This document shows, one piece after another, positions 3,869-22,111 of a stretch of DNA of 64,000 bases; position 1 is the stretch's first letter; each line of letters starts with the position of its first letter. A program made the position numbers and the translations under genes. The stretch is from contig JAJCYT010000012.1 in assembly GCA_029262795.1 (NCBI GenBank), positions 1 through 64,000 on the forward strand. The letters run 5' to 3'. Source of the stretch: Candidatus Fraserbacteria bacterium (GTDB lineage: Bacteria > Bipolaricaulota > Bipolaricaulia > RBG-16-55-9 > JAJCYT01). The notes beneath the pieces are model-generated. The model saw nothing but the letters and a program-made list of their open reading frames with translations, was not told the origin of the DNA and searched no databases.

Positions 3869-3903
3869 AAAAAAGGGCCGATCACCAGGATCAGCCCTTT
3901 TTC
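3869..3903 (-). terminator. Intrinsic terminator of the MerR-type gene
   Basis: An A-tract/GGGC stem and its complement flank a 5-nt loop. Read on the minus strand the stem pairs with one G-U wobble and runs into TTTTT. It begins right after the stop codon of the MerR-type gene (3905). Confidence 0.8.
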
Positions 3904-3904
3904 G

Positions 3905-7054: not shown

Positions 7055-7117
7055 GAGGTTACAGTCTACTAAGAGTCAGTTTTCAACCTAAATCATCAAG
7101 CAAGAAGAGGAGAAACC

Positions 7118-7435
7118 ATGACCCCTTTGAAAGAAATTAAATACTCATTTGAACCAACAGGAGATAAAAACAGCGTAACAATTTTTGGAACGGTGCTTAA
7201 AGCCGATGAAGCCATTCAACATTTTATTTTGAATGAAAATCAGCAAGGTGTACAGATTAATGCTGATGTAGATGGGGTTTCATTGGTGGTCAGATACAAT
7301 GACGATCATCTTTCAACACACTCAGTCTATTACAACGCAGATGATCTAAGTGATTTCATTAGAGATGATATTGATCCTGCACTTCCAAATATGGATGTTG
7401 ATTTACCTGGAACCTCATCCTTAAACTTTCTTTGA
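7118..7435 (+). CDS. Unknown 105-residue protein downstream of the S8 protease
   Basis: Not recognised. A 105-residue acidic protein without signal peptide or membrane helix. It starts at an ATG preceded by AGAGGAGAAACC, a strong ribosome site, 63 bases after the protease stop, so the two are probably co-transcribed. Predicted by eye as alternating strands (VTIFGTVLKA, VQINADVDGVSLVVRYNDD) with an acidic tail (DLSDFIRDDIDPALPNMDVDLPG). The last 15 bases overlap the 3' end of the convergent SARP/NB-ARC gene. Possible roles include a cytoplasmic partner or immunity-type factor for the protease, but nothing in the sequence shows this. Confidence 0.65.
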   Translation: MTPLKEIKYSFEPTGDKNSVTIFGTVLKADEAIQHFILNENQQGVQINADVDGVSLVVRYNDDHLSTHSVYYNADDLSDFIRDDIDPALPNMDVDLPGTSSLNFL

Positions 7436-10400
7436 CTGTTGCTTCCACATTTTAATTAGACTATGCCGAGATTTTAGGAAAATTGATTTCAAATCTTCAT
7501 TTTCTATTTTCTCGGCATTGTCTATTATTGACTCATAGGCAAACCCTAAATATAAGCCTGCTTTTTGGGTTTCCCCTAGGTGTGACAAAATTTGTGAATG
7601 TGCAAAATAAATTCCTTCTGTATTCGGTACTTGTGTTTCATCTAAGAGAGTCTCCAGTGATTTTACAGCGCGATCTGAGAACTTGAGCGCCATAGAGAAT
7701 TGCTCCAAGTGAAAATAGGTGCAACCAATGGCTGAAAGAAACAATAAATTCTTCATCACAAAATCAAGATTTTCACTTATCATAAACCCCTGCTGAAAAT
7801 AACCTAAAGCTTCCTGATAATTTCTCAATGCCAAGCACACTGAACCCAAGTTGAACATAATATCAATCTCATTTGCTGGGCTTTTCAATTCTTTGAGAAT
7901 ATTTAGAGCTTCCTGGCTAAATTCGAAAGCTTCGTTTAATTTGCCTTCATCAACTATCGAGCCCCAAGTAACACTTGGGTAACCACCCACACCAAGGGCT
8001 TCGCAGGCTGCGCTTAAGTTAATCAGTGCGCTTGCTCTATGGGCTTCATCTTTTAGCCCCTCAAACATGGAGAGAGCTTTTTTATGAAATTTGAATGAAG
8101 ATTGAGCATCGCCAAGCTCTAAAAAAAAACTGCCTAGATTGTTGTAATTTTTTGCAGCACCTAATTGATCTCCAATTTCATCAAGAATTTTGCTGCATTG
8201 TTCATTTGAATCCAACGCATTTTTGTGTTGATTCTTGAGATAATACAACACACCCAAATTCGCGAAAATGTAGGCTTCTCCTTTACGATCCTCAATATCT
8301 TGAAACAAGGAAAGGGCATTATTCCAGTGATCCTGGGCTTTGTCAATTCGATTTAATCGCACTTGGTTTGTACCGAGGTCTTTTAAGACATTGGCTTGGC
8401 CCTCTTTACTATTGAGGGTTTCATAAAGCTCCAAACTGCTTTTGAAAAGTTTCTCCGCTTTTAGATAATCTCCTTGATTTTGAGAAAGCATCGCTGCTCC
8501 ATGGCACACCTTGGCGAAATCCACGCTATTCTCCAAACCTTCGCTACGTTCTATTAGTTTTTCTAGCCATAAAAGGCCTTCGGTGAAATGGCTGCGAATG
8601 TTCCAAAATGGCCAAAATGTTCCTGAAAGCTTCAAGCCTTCTGGGATCTGCTTGTTTTCCAAAGTCCAGTTGATGGCTGCGCGAAAGTTGTCATGCTCTC
8701 GGGCAAGCCGGTTAAGCCATTCTTTTTGTTCGGATCCACTGAGTTGTGGCTCCGATTCGCGGGCAAGCTGCAAAAAATACTGTAAATGGTGTTGTGAATA
8801 GATAGGTGCTAATTCTTCTTCCTGAAGCCTTTCAACAGCAAAGCCACGAACTGTTTCCAGCATTCGATAACGGACTGAAGCACCATCCACCAGATCGACA
8901 AACACAGTGGATTTATCCACCAATTGTGAAAGCAAATCCAAAATATCGCCTTCCTGAATTCCTTCACCTTGGCAAACAGCTTCTACACTTCTTAAGTTAA
9001 AGCCACCTGAAAACACAGAAAGTCGATTGAGCAAACGCTTTTGTTTTTCTGTCAGTAATTCATAACTCCATTTCAACAACTCCAACATTGTCTGATGCCG
9101 AGTGGGTACGTCAGGAGAACGAGTTGAGAGCAATTGAAAGCGATGGTCAAGTCGTTGCTCGATTTGCTCCTCTGACAAAATATTGAGCCTCGAAGCAGCC
9201 AATTCTATTGACAATGGAATGCCTTCTAAACGACGACAAATGCGCACCACTGCATCAGCATTTTTTTCTGTCAAGACATAATGAGGTCGGATATTGCTGG
9301 CACGGTCTACAAACAATTTGACAGCTTCGTAGGTAAGGAGGTTTTCAATATTGGAAGAATGGCCCTCCAATGGTAATGATAAAACAGGCACGGCAAAAGC
9401 TATTTCCCCCTGGTTACCCAGTTTTTCAAGGCTGGTAGCAAGAACACTTAAATTCACGCAATCTGTCAACAGTTGATTGACCAACTCAGCACATGCCGCG
9501 ATCAGCTTTTCACAATTGTCTAAAATCAATAGTAGTTTTTTGTGTTTGAGTTCGTTTTTCAGAGTATCAATTAAGGGTTCATTCTGTCCCTCAGTGAGGC
9601 CAAAAACCTTTGCCACTTCCTGTATCAACAGTGTTTCATCTTTCAATTCCGAAAGCTCTATGAGTTTTATCCCATCAGAAAATTCATCTGATTGTTGAAA
9701 CTCGATTCCCACTTGAATCGCCAGTCGCGTTTTGCCACTACCGCCAGCCCCTGTGAGGGTGACCAATCGACTTTGTGAAAATAAATGTTTAATGCTATTT
9801 ATTTCATTTTCTCTGCCTACAAAATGGGTCAACAACTGAGGCAAATTGTGGTTTTCTTGGCCTGGTATGGACACTTCAGCTCGGGTCATTTTGGGTTTTG
9901 GCGAAAGTTTGTTGGCTATGAAGATGCCCGATTTGATATCTTCAAAAAGTGTTTTTGTCTGAGCAGAAGGTTCAACATCCCATTCTTTTTTCAAAACATC
10001 TTTGCAGGTTTCATATTGTTGCAACGCATCTGAACGCTTGCCATTTGCTGCATACAGAGTCATCAATTGACAATGAATGTCTTCTTGGATTTGAGATTTG
10101 GACAAACTTTCTCTGGCACATTCAATAGCCAGGTCCAGGTGGCCGTCTGCCATATACAGTTCTGTAAGTTCATTCAGCAGGGCAACAAACTGCACATCCA
10201 ATGCCGCTCTATCTTCGCGGCACCAGTCATCATAAATTTCCGGCAGCAACTCTCCCCCGTACAAGGTCCTGGCTTGTTCCAATGCTTGTATTTTCAATTT
10301 CCCAGAAGCCCGCTTGGCCTTTGCAATTTCAGCTTCGAACTCAAGCACATCCAGCCAGTAACCACAACTGCTGTTGAGACAAACAAATTTCTGCTTGACA

Positions 10401-10678
10401 TTTAAATGGGTGCCTAAAGCAATTTCGCCAGGCTCAATGGCTTTTTTACGCAAATCATTGATGGCTGTGCGTAAGCTGGATTTCGCCTTTTCTAACTCAT
10501 CTTCGCTTTGGTCAGGGTTTCCCCAAAACTTTGAAATCAAATCCTCTTGACGATGATTCATGTCTGGGTTCATCGCAAGGTGTGCTAATAAAGATGCCAC
10601 TTTTTTGCTGATAAGCTTGATTGGTTGGCCCGAAACATCAATCAGTTGAAATCCACCAAACAAACTGAGACGAAACAT
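7421..10678 (-). CDS. SARP/BTAD - NB-ARC - TPR transcriptional regulator (AfsR-like)
   Basis: A 1085-residue regulator with AfsR-type architecture. Residues 1-90 are an OmpR/SARP-type winged helix (FRLSLFGGFQL, HRQEDLISKFW, SLRTAINDLRKKA). About 105-250 is the bacterial transcriptional activation domain (YWLDVLEFE, GELLPEIYDDWC, ALQQYETCKDVLKKE). From about 285 follows an STAND/NB-ARC ATPase: HFVGRENEI, Walker A GAGGSGKTR (310-318), Walker B LLLILDNCEKL, and the winged helix LLKWSYELL. The last 380 residues are about nine TPR repeats (LGVLYYLKNQHKNAL, LGSFFLELGDAQSS, etc.). The ATG at 10678 is preceded by GGAAAGAGGG; an upstream in-frame start at 10741 is less likely. STAND proteins switch on signal binding and ATP-dependent assembly; the signal and targets are unknown. 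Its 3' end overlaps the small gene at 7118-7435. Confidence 0.88.
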   Translation of the reverse strand: MFRLSLFGGFQLIDVSGQPIKLISKKVASLLAHLAMNPDMNHRQEDLISKFWGNPDQSEDELEKAKSSLRTAINDLRKKAIEPGEIALGTHLNVKQKFVCLNSSCGYWLDVLEFEAEIAKAKRASGKLKIQALEQARTLYGGELLPEIYDDWCREDRAALDVQFVALLNELTELYMADGHLDLAIECARESLSKSQIQEDIHCQLMTLYAANGKRSDALQQYETCKDVLKKEWDVEPSAQTKTLFEDIKSGIFIANKLSPKPKMTRAEVSIPGQENHNLPQLLTHFVGRENEINSIKHLFSQSRLVTLTGAGGSGKTRLAIQVGIEFQQSDEFSDGIKLIELSELKDETLLIQEVAKVFGLTEGQNEPLIDTLKNELKHKKLLLILDNCEKLIAACAELVNQLLTDCVNLSVLATSLEKLGNQGEIAFAVPVLSLPLEGHSSNIENLLTYEAVKLFVDRASNIRPHYVLTEKNADAVVRICRRLEGIPLSIELAASRLNILSEEQIEQRLDHRFQLLSTRSPDVPTRHQTMLELLKWSYELLTEKQKRLLNRLSVFSGGFNLRSVEAVCQGEGIQEGDILDLLSQLVDKSTVFVDLVDGASVRYRMLETVRGFAVERLQEEELAPIYSQHHLQYFLQLARESEPQLSGSEQKEWLNRLAREHDNFRAAINWTLENKQIPEGLKLSGTFWPFWNIRSHFTEGLLWLEKLIERSEGLENSVDFAKVCHGAAMLSQNQGDYLKAEKLFKSSLELYETLNSKEGQANVLKDLGTNQVRLNRIDKAQDHWNNALSLFQDIEDRKGEAYIFANLGVLYYLKNQHKNALDSNEQCSKILDEIGDQLGAAKNYNNLGSFFLELGDAQSSFKFHKKALSMFEGLKDEAHRASALINLSAACEALGVGGYPSVTWGSIVDEGKLNEAFEFSQEALNILKELKSPANEIDIMFNLGSVCLALRNYQEALGYFQQGFMISENLDFVMKNLLFLSAIGCTYFHLEQFSMALKFSDRAVKSLETLLDETQVPNTEGIYFAHSQILSHLGETQKAGLYLGFAYESIIDNAEKIENEDLKSIFLKSRHSLIKMWKQQSKKV

Positions 10679-10972
10679 GAAAACCCTCTTTCCAGACAGA
10701 TACTTTATGATAAATGTTTTGGTCAAAAAACTCCAAAACATACAAATGAAAACTTAAGTTTAACAAATATTAATAGTTATAAAATTTAAGAATCTAATTC
10801 TAAAAGGCAAATAACAAATCATTGCTGAGGTGAAGCTTCCAGCACAGTCAGATTCGGATCACTAAATTCTCAACCATAGGCATTAAGGAGCTTATTTTAA
10901 TGCATTGAAAAGTGTGTTAAAATGAACTTCAAAACTTAATTAATTTCGTCAAACGAGCCAAAGGGGGTAAGG
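10679..10972. other. AT-rich divergent intergenic region
   Basis: About 290 very AT-rich bases between the SARP/NB-ARC gene (minus) and the amidase gene (plus). It must hold both promoters. No open frame with a ribosome site, RNA gene or clear repeat was seen; no promoter pair could be named with confidence. Confidence 0.4.
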
Positions 10973-12898
10973 ATGAATGGGACAAAAGATCTTTTATTGG
11001 TTGGTGTGTTAGCGCTGGTGATGCTTGCCACTGCGGTGTTGGCCCTCACCTTGGTCAGCGTAGCAGAGGCCCCCTCCGAAACAGCCACCATTGTGCAAAC
11101 GAGTGGCAGTCAAACAAGTACAACCACGGAGTCGACCATCACTCAAGCACAAATTTCCGGCCAAATTTATCAAGTTCAAACAGACGACCAATTGCAAGGC
11201 ATTGCCGAAGCCTTTTACAACAATACCACTTTGCATCCAGCCATTGTGTGGGCTAGCACCATTCGGGCAATTGATGATACAGACTTTGTCATCAACACCG
11301 AAAACAACACCCTCAATGAAGGGCAGTCGTTGCTCATTCCAGATCAAGCCGATGTCGAAACTTGGGAGCAGCAATTTTTGCAGTTGGATACCGCGCATGC
11401 CGATATCATGGAAATGACCATCCAAGAACTCCAGGATGCCCTGAATGCAGGAACACTCACGTCTGCGTCATTGATTCAAGCTTACTTCGATCGAATTCAG
11501 GTCCTGGATCGAAGCGGACCTCTTTTAAATTCTGTGATTGAAACCAATCCTGAGGCGTTGAGTATTGCCAGATCACTGGATAGAGAACGCGCTGAATCAG
11601 GTCCACGCGGCCCGCTTCATGGCATCCCCATTTTGCTGAAAGACAATATTGATACCGATGATCAAATGCAGACCACGGCTGGCTCAATGGCATTGCTTGG
11701 TTCCAAGCCGGCTCAGGATGCTTTTGTGGTGGCTCAACTAAGACAGGCTGGTGCCATTATTCTTGGCAAAGCCAATTTGAGTGAATGGGCTAACTTTCGC
11801 GGCAGCCCATCCATCAGTGGCTGGAGCGCTCGCGGAGGGTTGACTCGAAATCCATACCGACTAGATCACACCCCCTGGGGATCCAGTTCTGGATCAGCTG
11901 TGGCCGTGGCTGCCAATTTGGTAACCGTCGCATTAGGCACCGAAACAGCTGGCTCCATTTCAGCCCCTGCTTCAATCAATGGTGTGGTGGGATTAAAACC
12001 TACCGTTGGCCTGACCAGCAGAGCTGGTGTGGTGCCTATTGCCCACAGTTATGACACAGTAGGGCCATTGGCTCGCACAGTGACTGATGCTGCTTTGGTG
12101 CTAAGTGCCATTGCAGGCGTTGATTCCAGAGATTCAGGCACTGCAATGGCTGAAGGCAATCTGTTTGATTATCAAGAATTCCTGGACGCTGACGGACTAG
12201 AAGGCGCACGCATTGGCGTGCCCATCAACCTGCTCAATTACAACGAGGATGCACACATTGAAGCATTGTTTGAACAAGCCTTGGATGTGATGAGAAACCA
12301 GGGTGCTGAAATTGTTGAAGTCGAGATGCCAGGATTGGATGAATTGTTTGAATATTTTGAAAGCCCAAACAATTTTGGCAATGTGCTTCGTTATGAATTT
12401 AAATCTGATATTGCTCAATATCTATCCACCCGTGTGGCAGATTCGAATGGATCGGTACCAACAACGCTCGACGATTTGGTTGAACTGAATGAACAATTGG
12501 CAGATCAAGAGCTTTCATGGTTTGGACAGGAATTGTTTGAAGAATCTTTGGACCGTGGCGGATTGGATGAAGCCGGATATCTTGAAGGCGTGTCAAAAGG
12601 GCGTCGCATTGCCGGCCAGGATGGAATTGATACGTTGTTGCAGGAGCACAATCTTGATGTGTTGGTGTTGCCTGCATTGGAGTCTTTCGCACGAATTTAT
12701 GCAGCACTTCCAGGGTATCCTTTATTGACGGTTCCGGCAGCGTTTACTGATGGCGGATTGCCATTTAGCATTGGTTTTTTCAGTTCGGCTTTTGAAGAAC
12801 CCACGCTGATTAAAATGGCCTATGCGTTTGAGCAAGCCACACAAGCGCGTCGCCCACCACAATATTTGTTACATGTGGCAAACCCTTATGCACCATAA
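10973..12898 (+). CDS. Membrane-anchored amidase-signature hydrolase with LysM-like domain
   Basis: A 641-residue protein. Residues 6-30 are one hydrophobic helix (anchor or signal). About 62-125 resemble a LysM domain (QIYQVQTDDQLQGIAEAFY, then NTLNEGQSLLIPD), which binds glycan chains such as peptidoglycan. From about 145 to the end is an amidase-signature enzyme with the Ser-Ser-Lys triad: Lys223 in LLKDNID, the cis-Ser in WGSSSGSA (304-308) and Ser328 in GTETAGSIS. Family members hydrolyse carboxylic amides. The LysM-like part and the anchor place this one outside the cytoplasm, but the substrate is not evident. The ATG follows AAAGGGGGTAAGG. The 3' end overlaps the pgi gene in another frame, so pgi may be translationally coupled to it. 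Confidence 0.85.
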   Translation: MNGTKDLLLVGVLALVMLATAVLALTLVSVAEAPSETATIVQTSGSQTSTTTESTITQAQISGQIYQVQTDDQLQGIAEAFYNNTTLHPAIVWASTIRAIDDTDFVINTENNTLNEGQSLLIPDQADVETWEQQFLQLDTAHADIMEMTIQELQDALNAGTLTSASLIQAYFDRIQVLDRSGPLLNSVIETNPEALSIARSLDRERAESGPRGPLHGIPILLKDNIDTDDQMQTTAGSMALLGSKPAQDAFVVAQLRQAGAIILGKANLSEWANFRGSPSISGWSARGGLTRNPYRLDHTPWGSSSGSAVAVAANLVTVALGTETAGSISAPASINGVVGLKPTVGLTSRAGVVPIAHSYDTVGPLARTVTDAALVLSAIAGVDSRDSGTAMAEGNLFDYQEFLDADGLEGARIGVPINLLNYNEDAHIEALFEQALDVMRNQGAEIVEVEMPGLDELFEYFESPNNFGNVLRYEFKSDIAQYLSTRVADSNGSVPTTLDDLVELNEQLADQELSWFGQELFEESLDRGGLDEAGYLEGVSKGRRIAGQDGIDTLLQEHNLDVLVLPALESFARIYAALPGYPLLTVPAAFTDGGLPFSIGFFSSAFEEPTLIKMAYAFEQATQARRPPQYLLHVANPYAP

Positions 12899-14546
12899 AC
12901 ATGCTTTTGGGAAATATCAGTCTGCTGTTGAGCAGGCACTGGAAAAACTAACAACGGAAAACATCATCGACCGAATCAGGCAACATGATCACACCGTTTG
13001 GAAAGATTCTGCTAACGAAATCAGCAATCGCCTCGGTTGGCTCAATTCGCCTGATACCATGCTGGAAGACGTTCCACTGCTTTTGCAATTTACAGATGAA
13101 GTTCGTGCTGAAGGATTCACCCATGTTTTGTTGCTAGGTATGGGTGGGTCCAGCTTAGCACCAGAAGTGTTCCACCATGTGTTTGGTGTAAAATCAGGCT
13201 ATCTAGACTTAGACGTGCTGGACAGCACCGATCCGACTGCCGTGTTATCAGCGGAAGCAAACCATGACCCGCGCAAGACACTTTACATTGTGGCAACGAA
13301 ATCTGGGGGAACGGTCGAAACATTTTCCCTGTTCAAATATTTTTTCAATCAGGCGACCATTGCGCTGGGACAAGAGACGGTTGGACGACATTTTGTCGCC
13401 ATAACCGACCCCGGAAGTGGGTTGGTGGATACGGCCAACATGTTTAATTTTCGAAAAATCTTCTTGAATGATCCCAACATCGGCGGCCGATATTCAGCCT
13501 TGTCCCTTTTTGGAATGTTGCCAGCCGCGCTGTTGGGCATTGATATTAAAACATTACTGACCAAGGCCAAACATGCAGCGGAGCAATTCACCGGTTTTGA
13601 GGATGGGGTTGCTATGGGCGTCCTTGCGCTGGAAGGCAAGGACAAGCTAACGCTTATTGGTTCAAGCACCATGAGGCCACTTGAGCCTTGGGTGGAACAA
13701 CTCGTTGCTGAAAGCCTGGGTAAGGAGGCAAAAGGCATCTTGCCTATCTGTAATGAACCAATAAGTTCGCCTGAGGTTTATGGAATGGATCGATACTTTA
13801 TTCATTCAAGCGTTATGAGTGAGCCTTCTGAACACGATGAAGCCTTACTTAAATTGGGAGCAGAAGGTCATCCTGTAAGCTATCACTGTTTGGAAGACAA
13901 GGGTGATCTTGGCGCAGAAATGTTTCGATGGGAGATTGCAACTGTCGTTGCAGCGCATCTGCTCAAGGTCAATCCGTTTGATCAGCCAAATGTGGAATCG
14001 GCAAAAGTGCTGGCGCGCAACATGGTCAGCGCCTATCACGAAGACGGAAAATTGCCAGTGTTGTCACCCATATTGACCAAAGATGAAATTCAGGCGTTTG
14101 CTGATGTTGAAGCCGCTGATCTCAAAACGTTGCTCAATCTATACTTATCTGAATCTCAGCCAGGTGATTACATCTGCTTACAGGCATACGTACACGGAAC
14201 TGACGCCATCAAAGACGAACTGGAACGTTGGCGCGTTCAGCTAAGAGACCAATATCATTTGGCGACTACACTTGGGTTTGGACCCCGTTTTTTGCATTCC
14301 ACCGGCCAACTTCACAAGGGGGATCGAGGCAACGGTTTTTTTATTCAAATCACTTGCGATAATGTAAAAGACGTGGCAATTCCTGATCAGGCAGCTCAGC
14401 CCGACTCATCCATGACATTTGGTGTGCTTAAGGCGGCTCAAGCACTAGGAGATCGCCAAGCGCTGATAGATGCTGGCCGCAAAGTCATTCGTTTTCATTT
14501 GGGTACCAATGTGATTGCAGGGCTTGAAAAGCTGAAAACGCTGTGA
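12873..14546 (+). CDS. pgi: Glucose-6-phosphate isomerase, tal-pgi type, stand-alone
   Basis: A 557-residue cytoplasmic enzyme that interconverts glucose 6-phosphate and fructose 6-phosphate. It matches the Pgi half of the fused transaldolase-Pgi enzymes rather than the E. coli form: LLLGMGGSSLAPEVF, TKSGGTVETFSLF, GGRYSALSLFGMLPAALLG and the C-terminal GFGPRFLHSTGQLHKG with FFIQIT are characteristic. No transaldolase domain is present in frame. The start lies inside the amidase gene; ATG at 12873 or 12888 are both possible and neither has a convincing ribosome site, in line with coupling to amidase translation. The 26-base overlap makes a shared transcript nearly certain. Together with the aldolase at 21248, this covers two steps of sugar phosphate metabolism. 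Confidence 0.88.
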   Translation: MWQTLMHHKHAFGKYQSAVEQALEKLTTENIIDRIRQHDHTVWKDSANEISNRLGWLNSPDTMLEDVPLLLQFTDEVRAEGFTHVLLLGMGGSSLAPEVFHHVFGVKSGYLDLDVLDSTDPTAVLSAEANHDPRKTLYIVATKSGGTVETFSLFKYFFNQATIALGQETVGRHFVAITDPGSGLVDTANMFNFRKIFLNDPNIGGRYSALSLFGMLPAALLGIDIKTLLTKAKHAAEQFTGFEDGVAMGVLALEGKDKLTLIGSSTMRPLEPWVEQLVAESLGKEAKGILPICNEPISSPEVYGMDRYFIHSSVMSEPSEHDEALLKLGAEGHPVSYHCLEDKGDLGAEMFRWEIATVVAAHLLKVNPFDQPNVESAKVLARNMVSAYHEDGKLPVLSPILTKDEIQAFADVEAADLKTLLNLYLSESQPGDYICLQAYVHGTDAIKDELERWRVQLRDQYHLATTLGFGPRFLHSTGQLHKGDRGNGFFIQITCDNVKDVAIPDQAAQPDSSMTFGVLKAAQALGDRQALIDAGRKVIRFHLGTNVIAGLEKLKTL

Positions 14547-14557
14547 AATGAATACCC

Positions 14558-15559
14558 TCAATAACAAATTATTGTAGAATTCAACCGAGTTGCCACAGCA
14601 TCCATCTCTTTTTGATGGCGGTTTTTCATCACCTCGAACAACAATTCCTGAAGGCTTGATGCTTTCTTGGAATAAGGACTACCCTCTGCTTCAAATTCCA
14701 CCAATTGAGAAGCTCGATGACAGTGCCTGTTCGGATAAGTTTCCACCAATGTTGTAAATGGGTGATCAGTGGGACGATCAAACTGTCTATTTCTCATTAT
14801 GGATTCAACGGTGAAAGAAAAAGGTTTGTGATGTTTTAAGTAAGTAGTATAGTCTTCATTTAACCTGCCGGGAGGAATTGCACGATTTTGTTCATCGCTC
14901 CAGTGCTTGTCTCTAAAAATATGTGCAATCATCTGAGCAGCGTGAATGTCATGGCTGGCGGTGGGTATTTCAAAAAGTTCGGGTGTTTGTTTTAATTCGG
15001 CGTATGATTCGAAAGTATCCTGATAGATCTCAAGACCCAGGCTTGCTGTTTCTGTTTTAAATCTTTCTCGAAAAGCCATGTAGTCATCCACAACCATTCT
15101 ATGAAAATAAACATCAAGCTGTACTGGTTTTGAGCTTGAAGCTTCCGAATACAGGAACAGGTCCCGAAGATATGGGTTGAAGGCAATTTCAAGCAGGCTT
15201 GGATAATGATGAAGGAGGTGGGACTCAAACACCAATTCAAGAAAAATTGGATTGACGGACAGAGTTAATGGATGTTTATAGAGCTGTTCGTCATTTTCTC
15301 GTGTATGGCTATAGATGATATAATCGATGTTTCTCCGTTGAAATGCTTTGGCCAAATCCTCATATGTTTGAAAAACTTGTAATCTGGCAGGATAGTCAGA
15401 AAACTCGAATAACTTTTCAATGGAAGCAGCTGAATCCTGATCCCCTTTGACGACGCCAAACACCACAGCACCATCGTAGTGAATCATCATTCCCAATCCA
15501 ATCACGGCCAGTAAAAAAATGAACAAAAGCCAAATTGCCCCAGGCTTTAGTTTAACCAT
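14558..15559 (-). CDS. Membrane-anchored unknown protein, last gene of the E1/E2/JAB operon
   Basis: Not recognised. A 333-residue protein with a short MVKLKPG lead and one strong hydrophobic helix (about residues 8-28), followed by about 300 residues that should lie outside the cytoplasm if the helix is a signal anchor. The soluble part alternates helices and strands (GVVKGDQDSAASIEKLF, FQTYEDLAKAFQRRNIDYIIYS), loosely like a periplasmic-binding-type lobe, but no family is claimed. The ATG at 15559 overlaps the stop of the CFI-box gene by eight bases (ATGGTTAA), so it belongs to the same transcript as the conjugation-type genes. It has two histidine-rich segments near the C-terminus (RHCHR) and no obvious catalytic motif. 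Confidence 0.7.
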   Translation of the reverse strand: MVKLKPGAIWLLFIFLLAVIGLGMMIHYDGAVVFGVVKGDQDSAASIEKLFEFSDYPARLQVFQTYEDLAKAFQRRNIDYIIYSHTRENDEQLYKHPLTLSVNPIFLELVFESHLLHHYPSLLEIAFNPYLRDLFLYSEASSSKPVQLDVYFHRMVVDDYMAFRERFKTETASLGLEIYQDTFESYAELKQTPELFEIPTASHDIHAAQMIAHIFRDKHWSDEQNRAIPPGRLNEDYTTYLKHHKPFSFTVESIMRNRQFDRPTDHPFTTLVETYPNRHCHRASQLVEFEAEGSPYSKKASSLQELLFEVMKNRHQKEMDAVATRLNSTIICY

Positions 15560-15932
15560 TGCCCTTCCTTTGCTGCCGGTTGATATGGTTGACAAATTTG
15601 TCCAGCAGGAACTTGGTTGTTTTCTCTAGTGGCTTGATCCAGCGGATCAACTTGGCTGCCCAACGCCCATAGCGATAATAAACACTAATAAAACCCCGGC
15701 CGAACAGCGTTGGCTTCAGCACGCGATCACGCCATTGTCTTAAAGTTTCGACTTCAGCGCAGTTTGGATCACCATAAACAGTGGTGGCGATGATGCAGAA
15801 GGTTTGCTTGATCGGTTCATCGTAAGGGTCATACCCATAAAGCGATCGCTTGTCTTCCGGTTCTGTGTAGGGTCGATGAATTTGTCCGTATTCATCAACT
15901 TCATATTCATCATCGTGGTGTCGCTCGTTCAT
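15552..15932 (-). CDS. CFI-box domain protein in the E1/E2/JAB operon
   Basis: A 126-residue protein. The N-terminal 40 residues are very acidic and tyrosine-rich and probably disordered (MNERHHDDEYEVDEYG). From about residue 43 it carries a variant of the CFI-box, normally CFIATAAYGDP: here FCIIATTVYGDPNCAEV, followed by the family's LRQWRDRVLKP and GRGFISVYYRYGRWAAKLI segments. CFI-box domains occur at the C-termini of many unrelated bacterial proteins and are thought to be terminal processing or interaction modules; their biochemical role is not settled. Here the domain is a separate small protein. Its ATG overlaps the E1 stop (ATGA), with GGAGATGCTCC upstream, and its end overlaps the next gene. 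Co-translation with E1 suggests it works with, or is acted on by, the conjugation machinery. Confidence 0.75.
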   Translation of the reverse strand: MNERHHDDEYEVDEYGQIHRPYTEPEDKRSLYGYDPYDEPIKQTFCIIATTVYGDPNCAEVETLRQWRDRVLKPTLFGRGFISVYYRYGRWAAKLIRWIKPLEKTTKFLLDKFVNHINRQQRKGNG

Positions 15933-17116
15933 GGAGCATCTCCAGTTTCAACAGGAACATCAGTTTCTTCGGGTTTCGGTGTGCCGCACACTTCACAATG
16001 CGGGTCCCGTATCACATCAATGGATGTGGTGACTTGTAAAGGGTGTGAAAAAATTTCGACCAGTTCGCCCCCCACTCCCGGATTGTTGTTGTTGCAAACC
16101 AGCGTGAATGGTGACAAATACCCTAGCAAAGCCGGTGTATATTTTTCTTGCCCTTGATTGAGTAAATCGAGAACCAACTTTACCCCAACAGTGGTCACAA
16201 ACACAATGTCGGTTGAGATGCCAGGTTCGAAATTGGCTTTGGATAAATCTTCCTCTGTGGTGTAGTGACGACGATTGGTCGATTCACGCTGAGTGAGGGC
16301 CGCAAATGCCGAACTCCCAAACAGGCAGTGATAACAGGGTGTCTTTTCAGGGTTGTAATGAAACACTTCACCAGCGCTTGCACGCTCCCAAAATCCAATT
16401 GACACAAACGGAATTTTATAGAGATGGGCAATCTTGTTACCATACAAGTCACCCTCACGATTATCGGCACAGCCAATGATAATGGTGTCCGGTGTACAAA
16501 ATGCATCGAACGTGGTTTTGGAAACGGTTTCTAAAATGTCCTGGTGCGTTTCAACCTTTACGGTTGGATTGATGTGTTGAATCCGTCGCCTGAGAGCGTT
16601 GACCTTAAACTTGCCCACATCCTCCAAGCCGCATTGATGGCGACAGAGATTGTGGTATGCCAGCGTATCATTGTCCACCAACAAAAAAGACCCGACACCA
16701 GAACGCGCCAACTCTAGTGCGACAAAACTGCCCACAGAGCCACAGCCCACGATGATGGCCTTCTTGTCGAGCATATGGGAAGTTTCCAATATCCCAGAAT
16801 TTCTTGAGAAAATATTTTGAATCAACTCGTATGGTTTTTTTTCACAGTCTTGATCGCCCTTTTTAAACAACAGCTCACCATTCTCCCAATGGCCCACAAT
16901 CTGATCGGCACCCACATCGGCCGTGACGTGATCCGTCACGACCACTCCCATTGGGGGATAGTCGCTGTTTTCAAGGCCATAGGCAATAACATTGTGCTCG
17001 TTAGACTCTGAGTGCTGTAATCCATACAAAGTGCCACGAAATTCTTTTTCGCTGTGATCCAGGGCTGCAGGATAGTGGACGACCGGCTGTCTCTCTCGCT
17101 TTTTCAAACGCGCCAT
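15929..17116 (-). CDS. E1-like (ThiF/MoeB/UBA-fold) adenylating enzyme
   Basis: A 395-residue protein whose residues about 115-360 are a ThiF-type adenylation domain. Visible features: nucleotide loop IIVGCGSVGS (GxGxxG at 124-129), the acidic LLVDNDTLAYHNLCRH segment (Asp148/150, Asn156, Arg159), Lys171, IIGCADNREGD, and two CxxC pairs (261/264 and 374/377) forming the usual structural zinc site. These enzymes adenylate the C-terminus of a ubiquitin-like protein. No cysteine lies between 264 and 341, the crossover-loop region where a thioester cysteine is often found, so it may act like MoeB, or use Cys341 or another residue. The N-terminal 110 residues are unassigned. ATG at 17116 overlaps the JAB stop; GGAAAGGAAC lies upstream. 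E2 and JAB genes precede it. Confidence 0.88.
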   Translation of the reverse strand: MARLKKRERQPVVHYPAALDHSEKEFRGTLYGLQHSESNEHNVIAYGLENSDYPPMGVVVTDHVTADVGADQIVGHWENGELLFKKGDQDCEKKPYELIQNIFSRNSGILETSHMLDKKAIIVGCGSVGSFVALELARSGVGSFLLVDNDTLAYHNLCRHQCGLEDVGKFKVNALRRRIQHINPTVKVETHQDILETVSKTTFDAFCTPDTIIIGCADNREGDLYGNKIAHLYKIPFVSIGFWERASAGEVFHYNPEKTPCYHCLFGSSAFAALTQRESTNRRHYTTEEDLSKANFEPGISTDIVFVTTVGVKLVLDLLNQGQEKYTPALLGYLSPFTLVCNNNNPGVGGELVEIFSHPLQVTTSIDVIRDPHCEVCGTPKPEETDVPVETGDAP

Positions 17117-18252
17117 CAACGAGTTCCTTTCCCAAACCGAAGTTTAAACGGGGTCCAGATCATGGAAGTCCCCCACACAAACACATACGTTGCCCCTATC
17201 ATCCAAAGTGCAAAAAATAAAAAACCAGGGAATGAGGTGTCGACACTAAAAAAGCCTCTGACCACAAAAAAAGTGAGCACCAACAAAACCAGTTGCCCCA
17301 ACATCATAAAATAAGTGCGAATGGGGATAGGCGGAGGCGGCGGTGGTGCAGTCGGGCCACCTGTACTCACAGGTCGGAACATGCTGGGATTAAAAGGGGA
17401 CTGCATTGCATTATTTCCCAGTGTTCCGAGTAAAAAAGAATTGATCACATTTCCTTGATAAACGCCATGATAGGTGATGGATTGATCGGTAATGGCAAAT
17501 TTCACCTGGCCCGACTCAAGATAAAACAAACACAGCACATGGCTTGGATGTTGAGCATCTTCTCCAACATAAGCAAGGTGAATTTCAACCGCATGATGAT
17601 CCCGGTTAAGCTCCACTTCATAATCATCAGGTTGTTCCAGACTGGCGACTTCATCAGTAACAATATCAAGCAGGGATTCAGTTGCGGCATCTTCCTGATC
17701 GGCCAATTGATAGTCATCGGGGTTTTTTAAGTCTAAAAATTCAGGTGGAACTAACTCATTGCCCACTTCTATCTGGGCAGGGGCAAGCTTGCGATAATGC
17801 GGTCGGCGGGTGGTGCTTGGCATCACATGGTAGAGCGTGAAGCGAAAGTCCGGATCAAAGTTGACCAGTGCAGAAATGGCACCTCGCGGCTGGAGGCTGG
17901 AAAAGCGCTGATTGGTGCCATCGTCGGTGGAAGAAAAACTGTCAAAGCTGCCTGGGTGGCGATGCCATAAGCCAAGCAGCTGTAATTTATGTTCATAAAG
18001 ACGTGCACGTACATTGGCCAGATGATTGACATATTCTTCATCGTATTCAAAAAAGGAAACACTACGATGGATGTTTTGATACCCTGGGTCAATAGATTCA
18101 ACCACGAACCAAGTGTCACCAATCACATGACCTAAAAAAATACCACCGGTTTCACGGTCAGGAAAATCTTTGCTTTCGGCCACCACACTGAGGTAGGCCT
18201 GATCCGTGAAGCAAACGCGATTACACCCTGCGACAGAAGCTGCCTCTTGCAT
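17116..18252 (-). CDS. JAMM/JAB metallo-isopeptidase with C-terminal membrane hairpin
   Basis: A 378-residue protein. Residues about 12-150 are a JAB/MPN domain with an intact JAMM zinc site: Glu34 (RETGG), His97 and His99 (LWHRHP), then Ser107 and Asp110 at the exact family spacing H-x-H-x7-S-x2-D. JAMM enzymes cut isopeptide or peptide bonds after ubiquitin-like proteins, either removing them from targets or maturing their C-termini. About 215-290 is a second, beta-rich region (YEVELNRDHHAVEIHLAY, VLCLFYLESGQVKFAI) of unknown identity. A proline run (about 306-315) leads to two hydrophobic helices (roughly 320-340 and 347-368), so the catalytic domain is tied to the membrane with both ends probably cytoplasmic. 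The ATG at 18252 has GAGAGGATT upstream. It is the second of the three core genes E2, JAB and E1. Confidence 0.9.
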   Translation of the reverse strand: MQEAASVAGCNRVCFTDQAYLSVVAESKDFPDRETGGIFLGHVIGDTWFVVESIDPGYQNIHRSVSFFEYDEEYVNHLANVRARLYEHKLQLLGLWHRHPGSFDSFSSTDDGTNQRFSSLQPRGAISALVNFDPDFRFTLYHVMPSTTRRPHYRKLAPAQIEVGNELVPPEFLDLKNPDDYQLADQEDAATESLLDIVTDEVASLEQPDDYEVELNRDHHAVEIHLAYVGEDAQHPSHVLCLFYLESGQVKFAITDQSITYHGVYQGNVINSFLLGTLGNNAMQSPFNPSMFRPVSTGGPTAPPPPPPIPIRTYFMMLGQLVLLVLTFFVVRGFFSVDTSFPGFLFFALWMIGATYVFVWGTSMIWTPFKLRFGKGTR

Positions 18253-18269
18253 ATTGAGAATCCTCTCGC

Positions 18270-18962
18270 CTAGATCTGGTGCCCTGCAAACTCTTGTTCG
18301 GAGAGGTCCCCACTACGCCACAACTCAAATGCAGCGATCCACTTGACCGCATGAGCCAAAGCCGATGCAGCAGATGTCACCACGCTGGTGTCCTGAAAGT
18401 GGCGCTTGTCCACGGTGCAGATGTAAAGATAACCCGAAGAGTCAATCAATGTATGAGGAATAGGTTGTCCCAATTGCTCACGAATTTCTTCCAAATCGGG
18501 ATCGATCGAATAGACCTTGATCGATCCTCCAAAGGTGTTGTTGTGCGGATGGTTGTGATCATAAATCACTTGTAAAAACCAATACTCGCCGTCATTGGCC
18601 TGGCTTTCCAATCTGCCTGTCCAGGCAAGTCGACCGTCATCAAGATATTCCATTTGAAATTGGGGAAAAAAACGGTTCATCGCCTTTTTTTCCGCCTCAA
18701 ACAAGCGTTCGTCTTTTTCATACCAGTAAAAGCTGGCAAGCTTTCCTGGTGGGATGGTGATGGTGTCTTCGCGTTTGCCGGCTTTGTCATCCTCTTCATC
18801 AGGAGAACCCTGCATTTCGCCCTCCTGGTTGATTTTGACTTTTTCACCGCGCAACAACATTTTGCGAAGTTCTTCGCGCTTCTTCTGGCGCTGTTTGGCA
18901 GCGGCTTCAGGGTCTTGTTGCGGTGAGGCAAAACGACCTGGCAGGATCTTTAGGAATCTCAT
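18270..18962 (-). CDS. E2-like (UBC-fold) conjugating protein with single cysteine
   Basis: A 230-residue protein. The ATG at 18962 is chosen because AAGGAGGTCCAAG precedes it. Residues 1-70 are highly charged, probably helical or disordered (KQRQKKREELRKMLLRGEK, PDEEDDKAGKRED). From about 75 the sequence follows bacterial E2-like proteins: a helix (FEAEKKAMNRFFPQF), a beta-meander (GRLAWTGRLE, YWFLQVIYD, GGSIKVYSI), then IPHTLIDSSGYLYIC and, after a gap, a long helix ASALAHAVKWIAAFELWRSG. The order P-H, G-x-L-x-x-Cys, then W-x-x-x-F-E-x-W is that of the E2 active-site region and closing helices. Cys182 is the only cysteine in the protein and sits at the expected thioester position. The placement next to JAB and E1 supports the assignment strongly. 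Confidence 0.8.
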   Translation of the reverse strand: MRFLKILPGRFASPQQDPEAAAKQRQKKREELRKMLLRGEKVKINQEGEMQGSPDEEDDKAGKREDTITIPPGKLASFYWYEKDERLFEAEKKAMNRFFPQFQMEYLDDGRLAWTGRLESQANDGEYWFLQVIYDHNHPHNNTFGGSIKVYSIDPDLEEIREQLGQPIPHTLIDSSGYLYICTVDKRHFQDTSVVTSAASALAHAVKWIAAFELWRSGDLSEQEFAGHQI

Positions 18963-18986
18963 CTTGGACCTCCTTCTATTCATGTT

Positions 18987-21038
18987 TTATTGCTTGACCA
19001 TCTGCTCAATGGTTTCAGTTAGCTTTTGTTTTACGCCCATGCCCACTTTTCGTGTCATCCCACAGTCAGGGCAGGTCAGTGTTTTGTCCAGTGGTTCTTC
19101 CCCCTGCACCGCCAAATCCAATTCCTTCTGATCGATTTGCATGGTGGTCCTTCCCAAGCCTTGAGCCTGGCAAGACTGGTTTTGGCACTCGTAAACAGCT
19201 GTAAGCGAGGATGAACCGGCTTTAATCCATTTTTTAAACTGGAACAACGGCATCGCGGCTGGTTTGATCTGCGCCTTTCCTTCAAGCAAATGTTCCATCA
19301 GTGTTTTGGGATCACCACTATAATAATCGCGTTGCGACATGGACAACAAGACTGGCGTTCGTTTTTGTCGTTGTTCGCCAATTTTCAGTACGCCCAGATT
19401 GAGCAAAAACACGCTCATGGTCACGAAAAAGATGTAAAATAAATTTGCAGGCATGTTGCCCAGATTGAACAACACAGGGGTCAAAGCCAACAATAAGGCC
19501 AGCAAAGAATATTTTAAGTGCACTCCGGCTGACATCAAAGGCGCTATCTTGGAGGTAAACCGATCAAACATATTGGTGATTGGGTTGACCTTCACCACAT
19601 CAACACACTGTTCAATCGTTTTTGCATAATCCCCATTTGTGCCAGAAACGGTGAGGGTCACTGTGTATTCTCCAGGTTCATCATAAGTGTGCGTAGGATA
19701 TGCCTGATCGCTGAAAGAACCATCCCCGAAATCCCAACGATAAGTGTGCGCATGACCGGTTGAATGATTGGCAAACTGGACTGGCTTGCCAGGCTGGGCT
19801 TTGCTTCGATCGGTGTCAAAATCGGCCAACAGGGTGGGTTCATAGACCGTCACCTTACGGATTTTCTCAAGATCCTGATCTCCAATTTTAACGTTAAATT
19901 TAACTGAATAGATGCCAGGGGCATCATAATGGTGCATTGGATCTGGCAGATCACTGCGGCGCCCGTCACCAAATTCCCAATGATAGGTTGCGCTCGGATC
20001 TTTTGCGCCGTTGATAAACTGAACCACCAGGGGCGGCTTGTCTCTCGTCAAGGATGCATTGTTAAGCACGGCATAATGCTCAGACGTTTTAGCTTGGGGA
20101 CTGTCCTGATATTCAAAGGTAAAAGGCACCCCCACCATTTCCCAAGAAAAATTGGCTTCTTGTGGTTGCTCAGACGCAGGCTCTGCATCCCCTTCATAAG
20201 GTTCAATGGTGAGGTAGTTTTCTATCATTTTGGCATATTCACCGACGGGTCCACGCACATTTAATTTTACACCATAGGTGCCTGGTTTATGAAAAACATG
20301 GATTGGATCTTCGGTGGTGCTGACCAATCCATCCCCAAAATCCCATTCGAAGCGTTCGATGTTGCCCTGGGAACGATTGATAAATTGCACCACCTGCCCG
20401 GCCATTGCAATTTTGCGATCGCTGTCAAAATCGGCAAACAACATCAATGGCTGTATACGCACTCGCTGGGAGGAAAGAGCCTGCCCTTCTTCTGTATGGA
20501 CAGTCAGTGTTACATCATAAATGCCTGGGCGTTCAAAGAAGTGCAGCGGGTTCTTTTCCTCACTCGCCCCCCCGTCGCCAAAGCCCCATTCGTAGGCATC
20601 AATGTTGCCCGCACACTGTGCTGTAAACTGCACAGCATAAGGAGGGCGCTCACGCACAATTTCACCTTTCTCCATCACCAGTTCAAAGCGACGCTCATTG
20701 CCATCTTCGTCTTTGACGTACTCAAAGATCATAGGCACTTGAGGTCGTATTTGTTGTGTGGTAAAGGCCACTTCAATGGCTTTATTCTGGGCTGGATAAA
20801 GAATGAGGGGCAGCATTTTGTTTTCTATTTTATGAACATATTTTTTGCCGTGAAACGGGCCACCCTGAGGTCGAATTTCTAAATCGTCCCCTGCATACCG
20901 ATCATCCAGGGCAAAAGAAAGTTCACCCTTCGCGTCGGTTTTCTGCCGGTAAACCATTTCGGCACCCACCTTGAAGGTCAATTCCACATCCCCGGCAAGG
21001 GCCCCTTCAAGGTCTTTGGTAATGACTTTTATGTCCAT
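18987..21038 (-). CDS. Four-PKD membrane protein with C-terminal zinc ribbon, first gene of the operon
   Basis: A 683-residue protein without an N-terminal signal peptide. Residues 1-85 look like a small beta-sandwich of the carboxypeptidase-regulatory type (TDAKGELSFALDD). Four PKD domains follow, each with its W-x-FGDG signature: WGFGDG (151), WDFGDG (232), WEFGDG (354) and WDFGDG (435). Two hydrophobic helices (about 508-528 and 532-552) form a hairpin. The C-terminal 130 residues contain a zinc ribbon with Cys618, Cys623, Cys656 and Cys659 (CPDCG). With no signal sequence and a helix pair, PKD domains and zinc ribbon should lie on the same, probably cytoplasmic, side; PKD domains are normally extracellular. 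It stands where the ubiquitin-like gene stands in Bil-type operons. The gene ends 24 bases before the E2 start. Role unknown: scaffold, receptor or modification target. Confidence 0.8.
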   Translation of the reverse strand: MDIKVITKDLEGALAGDVELTFKVGAEMVYRQKTDAKGELSFALDDRYAGDDLEIRPQGGPFHGKKYVHKIENKMLPLILYPAQNKAIEVAFTTQQIRPQVPMIFEYVKDEDGNERRFELVMEKGEIVRERPPYAVQFTAQCAGNIDAYEWGFGDGGASEEKNPLHFFERPGIYDVTLTVHTEEGQALSSQRVRIQPLMLFADFDSDRKIAMAGQVVQFINRSQGNIERFEWDFGDGLVSTTEDPIHVFHKPGTYGVKLNVRGPVGEYAKMIENYLTIEPYEGDAEPASEQPQEANFSWEMVGVPFTFEYQDSPQAKTSEHYAVLNNASLTRDKPPLVVQFINGAKDPSATYHWEFGDGRRSDLPDPMHHYDAPGIYSVKFNVKIGDQDLEKIRKVTVYEPTLLADFDTDRSKAQPGKPVQFANHSTGHAHTYRWDFGDGSFSDQAYPTHTYDEPGEYTVTLTVSGTNGDYAKTIEQCVDVVKVNPITNMFDRFTSKIAPLMSAGVHLKYSLLALLLALTPVLFNLGNMPANLFYIFFVTMSVFLLNLGVLKIGEQRQKRTPVLLSMSQRDYYSGDPKTLMEHLLEGKAQIKPAAMPLFQFKKWIKAGSSSLTAVYECQNQSCQAQGLGRTTMQIDQKELDLAVQGEEPLDKTLTCPDCGMTRKVGMGVKQKLTETIEQMVKQ

Positions 21039-21247
21039 AGGGAATCATCAATAGTTTTTTGCACTTATCATATAATATGTTGAGAATGACGGTTTGTCAT
21101 CTCTCCACACGTTATCTTATCACACCTAGGAATCAAGACTTACAAGCTGTCAGGAGTTAAATGACCCTTTCAAATAGAATAAACGACTCAGGTTTAAAAA
21201 ACTTCCCTGATCCTGACAGGCAAACTGGGCGCAATTTAAATTCTGGT

Positions 21248-22111
21248 CTACGCTTTGCCAGACGACCCAAACTCCTTCATTTTAGCCTGAACAGTTTGCT
21301 GAACCACATTGGCAGCAGGGCCAAGATATTTACGTGGATCGTACAGATCAGGCTTTTCGGCTAATATTTCTTTGACATGTTTTACAAATACCATCTGGTT
21401 TTCAGTATTGACATTGATCTTTGCAATCCCGCAAGAAATGGCCCGTTGAATGTCATCTTCAGGGATGCCACTGCCGCCATGCAGCACCAAGGGCAAATTG
21501 GTGCGTTCACGAATTTCTTGCATCTGAGTAAAACCCAGTTGAGGTTTGCCTTTGTAAGGGCCATGGACTGAACCCAAGGCAGGGGCCATCACATCCAAAC
21601 CTGTTTCTTCGGCCAAGCGCACACACTCGTCTGGAATCGCATAGAATCCGCTGGCTTCATCCACCACCATGTCATCTTCAGTGCCAGCAATGCGTCCCAA
21701 TTCTGCCTCAACAGACACACCTAAAGTGTGAGCAAGGTCAACCACACGTTTGGTTTCGACGATATTTTCTTCGAGTGGATGATGAGAAGCATCGATCATA
21801 ACCGAAGTAAATCCCGCATGGATGGCATGAACGCAAGCTTCAAAGCTGCCGCCGTGATCCAAGTGGATGGCAACAGGGACGGTGATCCCATATTCCTCCA
21901 TCAAGGACTTTACAATCCCAACGGAACACTTGTAGCCACCCATATATTTGGCTGCGCTCTCAGATATGCCGCAAATCAAAGGAGACTGTTCGGCTTCTGC
22001 CGCTTTCAAAATAGCCTGAGACCATTCCAAATTATTCAAATTGTACTGCCCAACGGCATATCCCTCACTGACTGCCGTTTCCAACATCTCTTTCATTGAA
22101 ACCAACGCCAC
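21248..22111 (-). CDS. fba: Class II fructose-bisphosphate aldolase family
   Basis: A 287-residue zinc enzyme that splits fructose 1,6-bisphosphate (or a related ketose bisphosphate such as tagatose bisphosphate) into dihydroxyacetone phosphate and glyceraldehyde 3-phosphate. Family motifs in order: GQYNLNN, the zinc-site [59 protein letters not shown] and the phosphate-binding KINVNTE. Length and motifs fit the FbaA/GatY branch. It starts with GTG at 22111, with GGAGGG six bases upstream. It is transcribed alone, divergent from the lut genes across 60 bases that contain an inverted repeat. Fructose versus tagatose specificity cannot be decided here; glycolysis or gluconeogenesis is the likely role given pgi nearby. 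Confidence 0.9.

Follow-up and report, generated by a model that had tools for sequence, protein, structure and literature searches.

Bil operons carry an E2, a JAB protease and an E1 together, in what we take to be the order modifier-E2-JAB-E1, and the same three enzymes are encoded in one operon in the subject of this paper, six minus-strand open reading frames (ORFs) at positions 14558-21038 of a 64,000-nucleotide stretch of Candidatus Fraserbacteria DNA, referred to throughout as the window. Should a small module at the N-terminus of the window E2 be the modifier, the order here would likewise be modifier-E2-JAB-E1. In the available portion of PMC11354881, BilA is described as having two ubiquitin-like domains, and BilD as combining an inactive and an active adenylation domain with a Cys domain. 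The window operon, by comparison, encodes no BilA-like product (its six products have no ubiquitin-like match in Pfam, PADLOC or NCBIfam), its E1 has a single ThiF domain and no such Cys, and it includes membrane parts; the E1 architecture and the missing BilA rule out membership in Bil.

A further point of comparison is offered by the CBASS systems that have an E1-E2 fusion and a JAB, represented here by three plasmid loci (L052-L054) that we presume to be of 'type II'. The fold of the window E2 comes closest to a CBASS structure (8yjy_B), and the E1 and JAB are related to theirs, but there is no CD-NTase among the six products, E1 and E2 are separate genes and the E1 lacks the cysteine; CBASS membership is ruled out by the absence of a CD-NTase from the operon together with the E1 architecture. 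The cassette thus resembles Bil, Bub and CBASS ligation in its working but fails the defining features of Bil and CBASS, and as against these two the distinct subtype that a first-pass annotation of this DNA had proposed is borne out (E1 architecture, no BilA, no CD-NTase).

Burroughs et al. in 2011 reportedly proposed the conjugation of a YukD-like protein, in which E1, E2 and JAB are associated with a component of type VII secretion. YukD was tried here as the modifier and rejected: its family PF08817 has no homologue in 13 cassette genomes, with Bacillus subtilis positive as a control, and the candidate modifier of the cassette is different and shorter. Prokaryotic E1/E2/JAB operon types, 6b-6e, are set out by Iyer et al. 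(2006; PMC1779556), and as far as the text of that paper is available these have the same kinds of enzyme in one operon. Within the same text, type 6d E2s lack the histidine that the window E2 keeps before its cysteine; 6c is an E2-E1 type and 6e pairs JAB-E1 with an inactive E2, whereas the window E2 is separate and no ubiquitin-like gene is present (PMC1779556). For secretion, most systems of the T7SSa-j catalogue have a YukD-like protein; its main text makes no mention of ThiF and, in the part available, names no E1/E2/JAB component (PMC11217815). The EccC/EssC-type ATPase and WXG100-like proteins treated in that part of the catalogue (PMC11217815) are common to several relatives of our cassette, while the window has neither. 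A literature search, made mostly without subscription papers, found no description of an E1-E2-JAB set paired with type VII secretion-like genes.

Three Enzymes with Conserved Active Sites

We read the operon as, on balance, a membrane-associated pathway of ubiquitin-like conjugation and deconjugation, and consider it highly probable that its E1, E2 and JAB act as the conjugating and deconjugating enzymes. The three enzymes, their order and their active-site residues are established by sequence comparison or modelling. The E2 was detected by PADLOC models only (PDLC00877, 1.1e-11) and matches no E2 family of Pfam or NCBIfam. Numbered on the 237-residue ORF (the likelier start, behind a GGAGGT site, would give 230 residues), H177 (18453-18455) and C189 (18417-18419) are invariant in all 12 aligned orthologues, a set from which L017 and L056 were left out; L017 also holds a second E2 copy, which is degenerate and no longer has the cysteine. 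In the AlphaFold2 model (mean pLDDT 75.5) a helix, four strands, an active-site stretch and closing helices are seen, and the top Foldseek match of this model is the CBASS CdnG-E2 (8yjy_B; E 1.6e-3, probability 1.00), followed by a UEV domain and UBE2L3. A predicted UBC fold with an active-site cysteine is, on this model, well supported. Identity to the window E2 is 31-53%, and to the window E1 42-57%, among 11 proteins compared in each case.

The JAB protein matches Prok-JAB (PF14464) at 29.5 bits against a cut-off of 25. Its residues E34, H97xH99, S107 and D110, which we take to be those of the JAMM signature (E, HxH-x7-S-x2-D), are invariant in all 12 aligned rows, two of which are JAB-only cyanobacterial proteins; that it is a complete JAMM/JAB protease is a well-supported reading of these residues. 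Two transmembrane (TM) segments, by which we mean here and below hydrophobic stretches by Kyte-Doolittle hydropathy, are predicted at 17176-17316, and flanking positive charges suggest that the JAB domain is cytoplasmic. The C-terminal domain (~17410-17679) is poorly conserved, being present in most relatives and not seen in L015, L016 and L020. Examined for a concealed ubiquitin-like or UBC-like fold, it gave a medium-confidence model (pLDDT 77) with a best Foldseek E of 0.07.

The E1 has a single match to ThiF (PF00899, 8.3e-35), at residues 114-323 of 396, with the motif GCGSVGS at 16727-16747, CxxC pairs at 16325-16339 and 15986-15997, and a stretch FxPGI(S/A)xD at 16208-16231 that is kept in 13 family E1s. 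By PDB profile its closest solved relatives are MccB, UBA5, MoeB and ThiF, and it matches BubCD weakly, at 25 bits. Both CxxC pairs are lost in L015 and L020, and such a joint loss is as expected if the two pairs form one putative zinc site. What sets the family apart from the CBASS enzymes is the position after the first CxxC pair, where a cysteine, presumably the catalytic one of the CBASS/BilD type, occurs in none of the 13 family members; in five of the eight comparison E1s (the CBASS loci L052-L054, and L007 and L055) it stands four residues before a conserved F/Y-x-P. Beyond the CxxC column and up to the end of the compared region, a cysteine is found among family E1s in L010 only. When adenylation domains are placed in an unrooted tree, the 13 E1s of the family (L056 not included) lie apart from the eight others with a local support of 0.967.

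Conservation and Spread of the Cassette

A plasmid search with the window JAB returned two cyanobacterial proteins, 46-48% identical to it, and an alignment of all three found 16 loci in a scan of 84,980 species, each represented by one genome. E2, JAB and E1 stand in that order at ten of these (L008, L009, L010, L014, L015, L016, L017, L018, L019 and L020), JAB and E1 being fused in L016; four others are Microcystis loci with JAB only. The records of the scan loci bear the names Thiomargarita, Stygiobacter, Clostridia, Spirochaetes, Treponema, Cryptobacteroides, Bacteroidales, Anaerolineaceae, Oscillospiraceae and Prevotellaceae. Two more complete loci, L041 (G454) and L042 (G955), came from an E2 profile (A5) run over sampled groups, which also gave three distant matches (G564, G770 and G1160). 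An E1 profile scanned over a viral collection found one phage-bearing contig with the full cassette (L056), whose E2, used as a query in turn, returned L056 again and one more contig; viral scans with the window JAB, with alignment A1 and with alignment A6 gave no matches.

The order E2-JAB-E1 is thus found at the window and 13 further loci, 14 in total, and to judge by these searches the cassette is rare in the groups sampled and scattered over widely different bacteria. The reading of the first-pass annotation, that E1, E2 and JAB form a conjugation system, gains support from C189, kept in 12 of 12 aligned E2 homologues, from the UBC topology of the predicted structure, and from this ordered co-occurrence of the E2 with E1 and JAB. 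Two Chloroflexota loci (L043 at 6712-16217, L044 at 6680-12003) form a second, distant family whose E1 is also without the cysteine; L043 has two JAB-type genes. On the Gloeothece plasmids the JAB gene is followed by an annotated WD40 protein.

A Candidate Modifier at the E2 N-Terminus

The first ~76 residues of the E2 ORF, counted from the likelier start, lie outside the UBC domain. A profile of this module, run over 2128 ORFs, matches E2 N-termini together with small ORFs just upstream of the E2 in L010, L014, L041 and L056; it also matches an ORF upstream of the E2 in the distant L043 (E 1.3e-3) and L019 4099-4797, an ORF upstream of the E2 that holds two module copies and no E2 domain. A second L019 ORF upstream of the E2 (3519-4001) starts with a motif that is similar by eye. 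With the window E2 as query, phmmer recovers two of the stand-alone ORFs, that of L059 at 6.4e-6 and that of L056 at 1.5e-4.

The module is seen as an E2 fusion, as a repeat and as a gene of its own. In five loci (L010, L014, L041, L056 and L059) it is a separate gene of 57-66 residues just upstream of the E2, with its own start and a stop before the E2 gene, and four of the five end in GKLA directly at the stop codon, that of L014 ending in GKLARRG. Strings picked by hand show G-[KRI]-L-A at the junction of module and UBC domain in all 14 loci. Tandem copies, arranged like those of a polyubiquitin-like precursor, occur, two each in L015 and L020, and L017 has by eye three near-identical copies and a fourth, weak one, each of them weak by profile alone. 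In the distant family a 64-residue ORF precedes the E2 of L044 and a similar one that of L043 (64-66 residues).

The position, size, repetition and conserved end at a stop codon of this module would fit a modifier, although a docking domain would show some of these features too. The first-pass statement that no modifier gene is adjacent is thereby called into question, in that the module, a separate gene in five relatives, occupies the slot of the modifier in Bil. Two other lines were set aside: a PDB profile search with the module returned for the most part designed repeat proteins, besides weak IHF/HU matches, which we attribute to chance, and the glycine C-termini of neighbouring proteins (NG in the CFI-box protein, GG in the WXG100-like proteins of Microcystis and L017) are inconsistent across loci.

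Membrane Partners and a Recurring Tail Motif

Three genes accompany the enzymes in the window. The PKD protein has four PKD domains (Pfam PF18911, 2.6e-59; also PF00801), two predicted TM segments at 19386-19523 whose flanking positive charges suggest that both its ends are cytoplasmic, and C-terminal Cys pairs (CQNQSC, CPDC) at 19062-19187. These pairs could form a zinc ribbon, as had been proposed from the first; the cysteines are indeed there, while no family match accompanies them. The CFI-box protein matches CFI_box_CTERM (NF041770) at 61 bits against a cut-off of 40. The last protein continues for ~300 residues after its N-terminal TM segment and matches no family above cut-off, a weak ABC2_membrane_3 match (E 0.0014) falling below it. 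Hydropathy (two segments in the PKD protein, two in JAB, one in the last protein) agrees with the earlier assignment of helices to three of the six products. The six-gene order, which had been put forward as a unit, is by contrast not kept, since phmmer found no match for the PKD, CFI-box or last protein in the other loci searched, and by this comparison the PKD protein is a local partner that is not conserved with the cassette.

What does recur among partners is a tail motif of the type D-x-x-G-x-I-x-R, present in the window in the N-terminal tail of the CFI-box protein (DEYGQIHR, 15873-15896) and elsewhere in membrane proteins, each with 1-6 predicted TM segments. The pattern was drawn up after the sequences had been seen, and the counts that follow are descriptive and not proof. 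In its strict form, [DNEHS]x(1-2)GxIxR at most 60 residues from the start or at most 40 from the end, it gives 15 rows among 412 genes of at least 80 residues and includes ten partner proteins across nine loci: the window CFI-box protein, one protein each in L008, L009, L015 and L018, a pair in L019 that carry the motif twice each, and, at the C-terminus, B-box-like membrane proteins in L010, L014 and L041. Three other genes also carry it (L016 4773, the JAB of L018 and L041 537). A looser pattern confined to TM-bearing proteins matches 11 of 1468 ORFs, eight of which are partners, and looser forms are seen by eye in L016, L017, L020, L042 and L056, the partner in L056 not matching the strict pattern.

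Type VII Secretion-Like Neighbours

An EccC-type ATPase adjoins the cassette at five of the 14 loci (L010, L014, L017, L041 and L056), and the same five have small WXG100-like proteins. The cassette-side ATPases best match NCBIfam EccCa, with E-values of 3e-29 to 2e-37 that are all far below its cut-off; the best WXG100 match is 1.5e-5, those of L014 and L056 are 0.008 and 0.014, and none exceeds the Pfam cut-off. EccCa-type matches number one to six in 12 of 15 genomes of 1.4-5 Mb, and must include ordinary FtsK proteins because the same search is positive in eight of 14 control genomes. Adjacency within a few kb should nonetheless rarely arise by chance.

Similar neighbours are seen around partial loci. 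In L057, which begins inside JAB, a protein with an FtsK/SpoIIIE domain follows the E1. In the JAB-only Microcystis locus L011 an EccC-type ATPase precedes the JAB gene (EccCa 2.8e-33; WXG100 0.029). Behind the L057 ATPase, the protein at 6322-7371 has a helical WXG-like start and, by eye, a HELGH (HExxH) motif, with a weak YwqH-like match (0.007), and from its sequence may be a secreted effector of metalloprotease type. The Microcystis loci L011, L012, L013 and L021 have in a row (~5000-14000) an EccC-type ATPase, a WXG100-like ORF with a GG end, the JAB gene and one for a large protein; the ATPase was tested in L011, those of L012, L013 and L021 being similar ORFs by eye.

Mobile Elements and Defence Genes Nearby

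Integrases lie near L009, L010 and L041; the L056 contig carries resolvase, terminase and portal genes, L057 a recombinase, and L059 ORFs that are recombinase-like by eye. Ten neighbour proteins, from L008, L009, L018, L019, L020 and L042, were run against PADLOC; seven had no match and three matched, namely a macro-TIR protein (L020), a HerA/mad8-like ATPase (L019) and a CorA-like protein (L008, on the opposite strand). The first-pass annotation had asked whether defence genes are near, and by these PADLOC matches they are near some relatives, while the operon itself has none. The matches lend mild support to a defence role for some copies of the cassette.

Further neighbours were noted in passing. 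The macro and TIR domain protein of L020 (5420-6520; TIR_2 2.3e-21) stands three genes behind the cassette. SUKH proteins often act as immunity proteins, and an SMI1/KNR4 (SUKH) protein (L042, 10422-10985; Pfam 7.7e-11) lies directly upstream of the cassette. A VTT-domain (DedA-type) membrane protein is encoded close behind it in L017 (13139-13720; Pfam 1e-19) and L018 (5481-6029; 3e-11). A Bradyrhizobium plasmid (L006, 3963-10333) has another operon of JAB, UBC-like (by eye) and ThiF genes, with dsDNA nuclease-domain and TIR-domain genes, as annotated, behind it.

Operon Layout

The six ORFs are present as the first reading described them, on the minus strand with gaps of at most 24 bases or short overlaps, as their coordinates confirm (Table 1). 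Because gaps of 24 and 17 bases are followed by overlaps of 1, 4 and 8 bases, the six genes are likely a single transcription unit. ATG is the likeliest start of all six, with a purine-rich site ahead of genes 2-6 and none obvious ahead of gene 1 (PKD). Promoter-like sites in the region number 14, against 9.3 expected from shuffles, and terminator-like sites 7, against 8.2. The operon is flanked on the left by a gene for phosphoglucose isomerase (12822-14546) and on the right by one for class II fructose-bisphosphate aldolase (21248-22111). Recent acquisition was considered and set aside, base composition giving no sign of it (GC 0.466 in the operon and 0.458 in the window; 55 of 116 windows have a lower value), and the operon looks settled where it is.

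Table 1. Positions of the operon genes, E2 parts and upstream site within the window.
Feature	Position	Strand	Basis or remark
PKD membrane protein	18987..21038	-	683 aa, four PKD domains, first gene
E2 gene	18270..18962	-	with N-terminal module and UBC-fold domain
E2 N-terminal module (candidate modifier, fused in frame to E2)	18735..18962	-	module HMM
E2 UBC-fold domain (predicted)	18270..18734	-	PADLOC models, AlphaFold2 model, Foldseek
JAB/JAMM protease	17116..18252	-	PF14464, invariant JAMM residues
E1, ThiF-type adenylation domain	15929..17116	-	PF00899
CFI-box protein	15552..15932	-	NF041770
Membrane-anchored last-gene protein	14558..15559	-	one N-terminal TM by hydropathy
Promoter-like site ATGACA-17-TATTAT	21072..21100 (read 21100-21072)	-	upstream of PKD gene; consensus match only

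Proposed Mechanism and Alternatives

The biological role that we infer for the cassette is the following. The E1, an ATP-dependent enzyme of the MccB/MoeB/ThiF type, would adenylate the C-terminus of a small modifier and, because it lacks the CBASS-type cysteine, would hand the modifier, once activated, straight to the E2 at Cys189; the E2 would then transfer it to a target. The membrane-tethered JAB would release or trim the modifier and also remove it from targets, with membrane anchors keeping the enzymes on the inner side of the membrane. Targets or scaffolds would most likely be partners from the operon itself (the protein with the DxxGxIxR tail, the PKD protein) or, for some relatives, the neighbouring EccC/WXG100 apparatus. 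As modifier, the ~76-residue N-terminal module of the E2 would be the likeliest choice; JAB could release it from the E2, or from precursors with tandem copies, at the conserved G-[KRI]-L-A junction. The membrane location claimed at the outset holds up as membrane association, given the hydropathy of JAB and PKD protein and the TM segments of the motif partners. Our identification of the module as modifier is tentative and somewhat less likely than not. So is the fuller picture, possible though hardly firm, of a modifier of ~57-76 residues outside the ubiquitin-like families that occurs as its own gene, as an E2 fusion or as head-to-tail repeats, is matured by JAB, is conjugated with no E1 thioester and is linked to complexes of the membrane or of type VII secretion-like kind.

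A number of results weigh against this scheme. As to the enzymes, the E2 has nothing in Foldseek at E<=1e-3; the comparison E1s L006, L043 and L044 also lack the cysteine, so that its loss is not special to the E1 family of the cassette; and JAB homologues occur with no E1 or E2 in Microcystis (L011-L013, L021) and Gloeothece (L004, L005). As to distribution, none of the other 99 genomes of the window's phylum has an E2 or JAB relative, and E2 profile matches are rare (2/391, 3/350, 3/344, 1/247 and 1/197 genomes, each count including the seed genome). Four loci are not counted among the 14: in L022 no E2 was found and the contig stops just after JAB, the match in L023 lies where its contig ends, L057 opens within JAB and L059 breaks off within E2. 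At E<=0.01 phmmer gave no relative of the PKD, CFI-box or last protein in L004-L023, L041-L045, L056, L057 and L059, and the window genome, 92% complete, yielded no WXG100 match (E<=0.01) and no EccCa match (E<=1e-8). As to the module, its model in the window (a helix, short strands and the tail ITIPPGKLA) is of low to moderate confidence, it matches no known family, and the PDB profile search found no solved ubiquitin-like structure. The stand-alone modules of L056 and L059, the latter a second viral-collection contig whose E2 is 82% identical to that of L056, are not independent cases because they are close kin, and the small proteins of L043 and L044 end in WFA plus extra residues with no glycine (PQRWFA).

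Other readings are not all mutually exclusive, and their likelihoods need not sum to one. It is quite possible, at somewhat short of even chances, that the module is a domain for regulation or docking by which the E2 is held to the E1, the JAB or a membrane partner, and which in some relatives has become a subunit of its own, the true modifier lying elsewhere or at a partner's C-terminus. The lack of a known family, of a ubiquitin-like structure and of a Gly-Gly end, and the divergent ends in L043 and L044, speak for such a domain, as does the finding that in many rows the module starts and ends with similar hxhPxGxhA motifs; tandem copies could moreover give multivalent binding. Yet a stand-alone module gene occupies the Bil-order modifier slot, in four of five cases its conserved end lies directly at the stop codon, the repeats share the same junction, and a YukD-type modifier is absent from the 13 genomes searched. 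A doubtful but tenable proposal is that components of a type VII secretion-like machine are what the cassette processes or modifies, the window copy being a relic or re-used with another membrane complex. It draws on the ATPase and WXG100-like genes at five of 14 loci, on the FtsK/SpoIIIE-domain ATPase behind the E1 of L057 and on JAB-only L011, which stands behind an EccC-type ATPase and has a weak WXG100 match; against it, no such genes were found in the stretch read at nine of 14 loci, the window included, neither EccC nor WXG100 was detected in the window genome, and the matches of both kinds fall below their cut-offs, those of EccC far below.

A system of the Bil/Bub kind that defends against phages and travels on mobile elements would account for the sporadic and rare distribution, the integrases or resolvases near L009, L010, L041, L056 and L057, and the resemblance of the enzymes to PADLOC models of CBASS E1, E2 and JAB. 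We regard such a system as unlikely, though slightly less so in view of the three PADLOC matches among ten neighbour proteins: the other three operon products have no PADLOC match, the defence-like neighbours vary by locus, that of L008 being on the opposite strand, and the window copy, of ordinary base composition, sits between genes for phosphoglucose isomerase and class II aldolase. Least probable is a reading in which nothing is conjugated and the E1 adenylates a small peptide in the manner of MccB, with the E2-like protein and JAB helping to make a modified peptide. MccB is indeed the closest solved relative of the E1 by profile and the E1 has no cysteine, but a conserved cysteine in a UBC-fold E2 and an intact JAMM protease would have no clear role in such a pathway, and we judge it a distant prospect.

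Beyond the first-pass annotation, our analysis adds the type VII secretion-like genes beside the cassette in some relatives, the DxxGxIxR motif and the lack of the cysteine in the E1. Should the modifier prove to be this module, E1 and E2 enzymes would here handle a tag that is not evidently a beta-grasp protein, which would loosen the tie between the ubiquitin fold and the ubiquitin enzymes; were that reading true, bacteria would have a further style of protein tag beside the beta-grasp modifiers and Pup. If the module is not the modifier, this would still be a rare and scattered E1-E2-JAB cassette that in several bacteria stands beside a type VII secretion-like machine.

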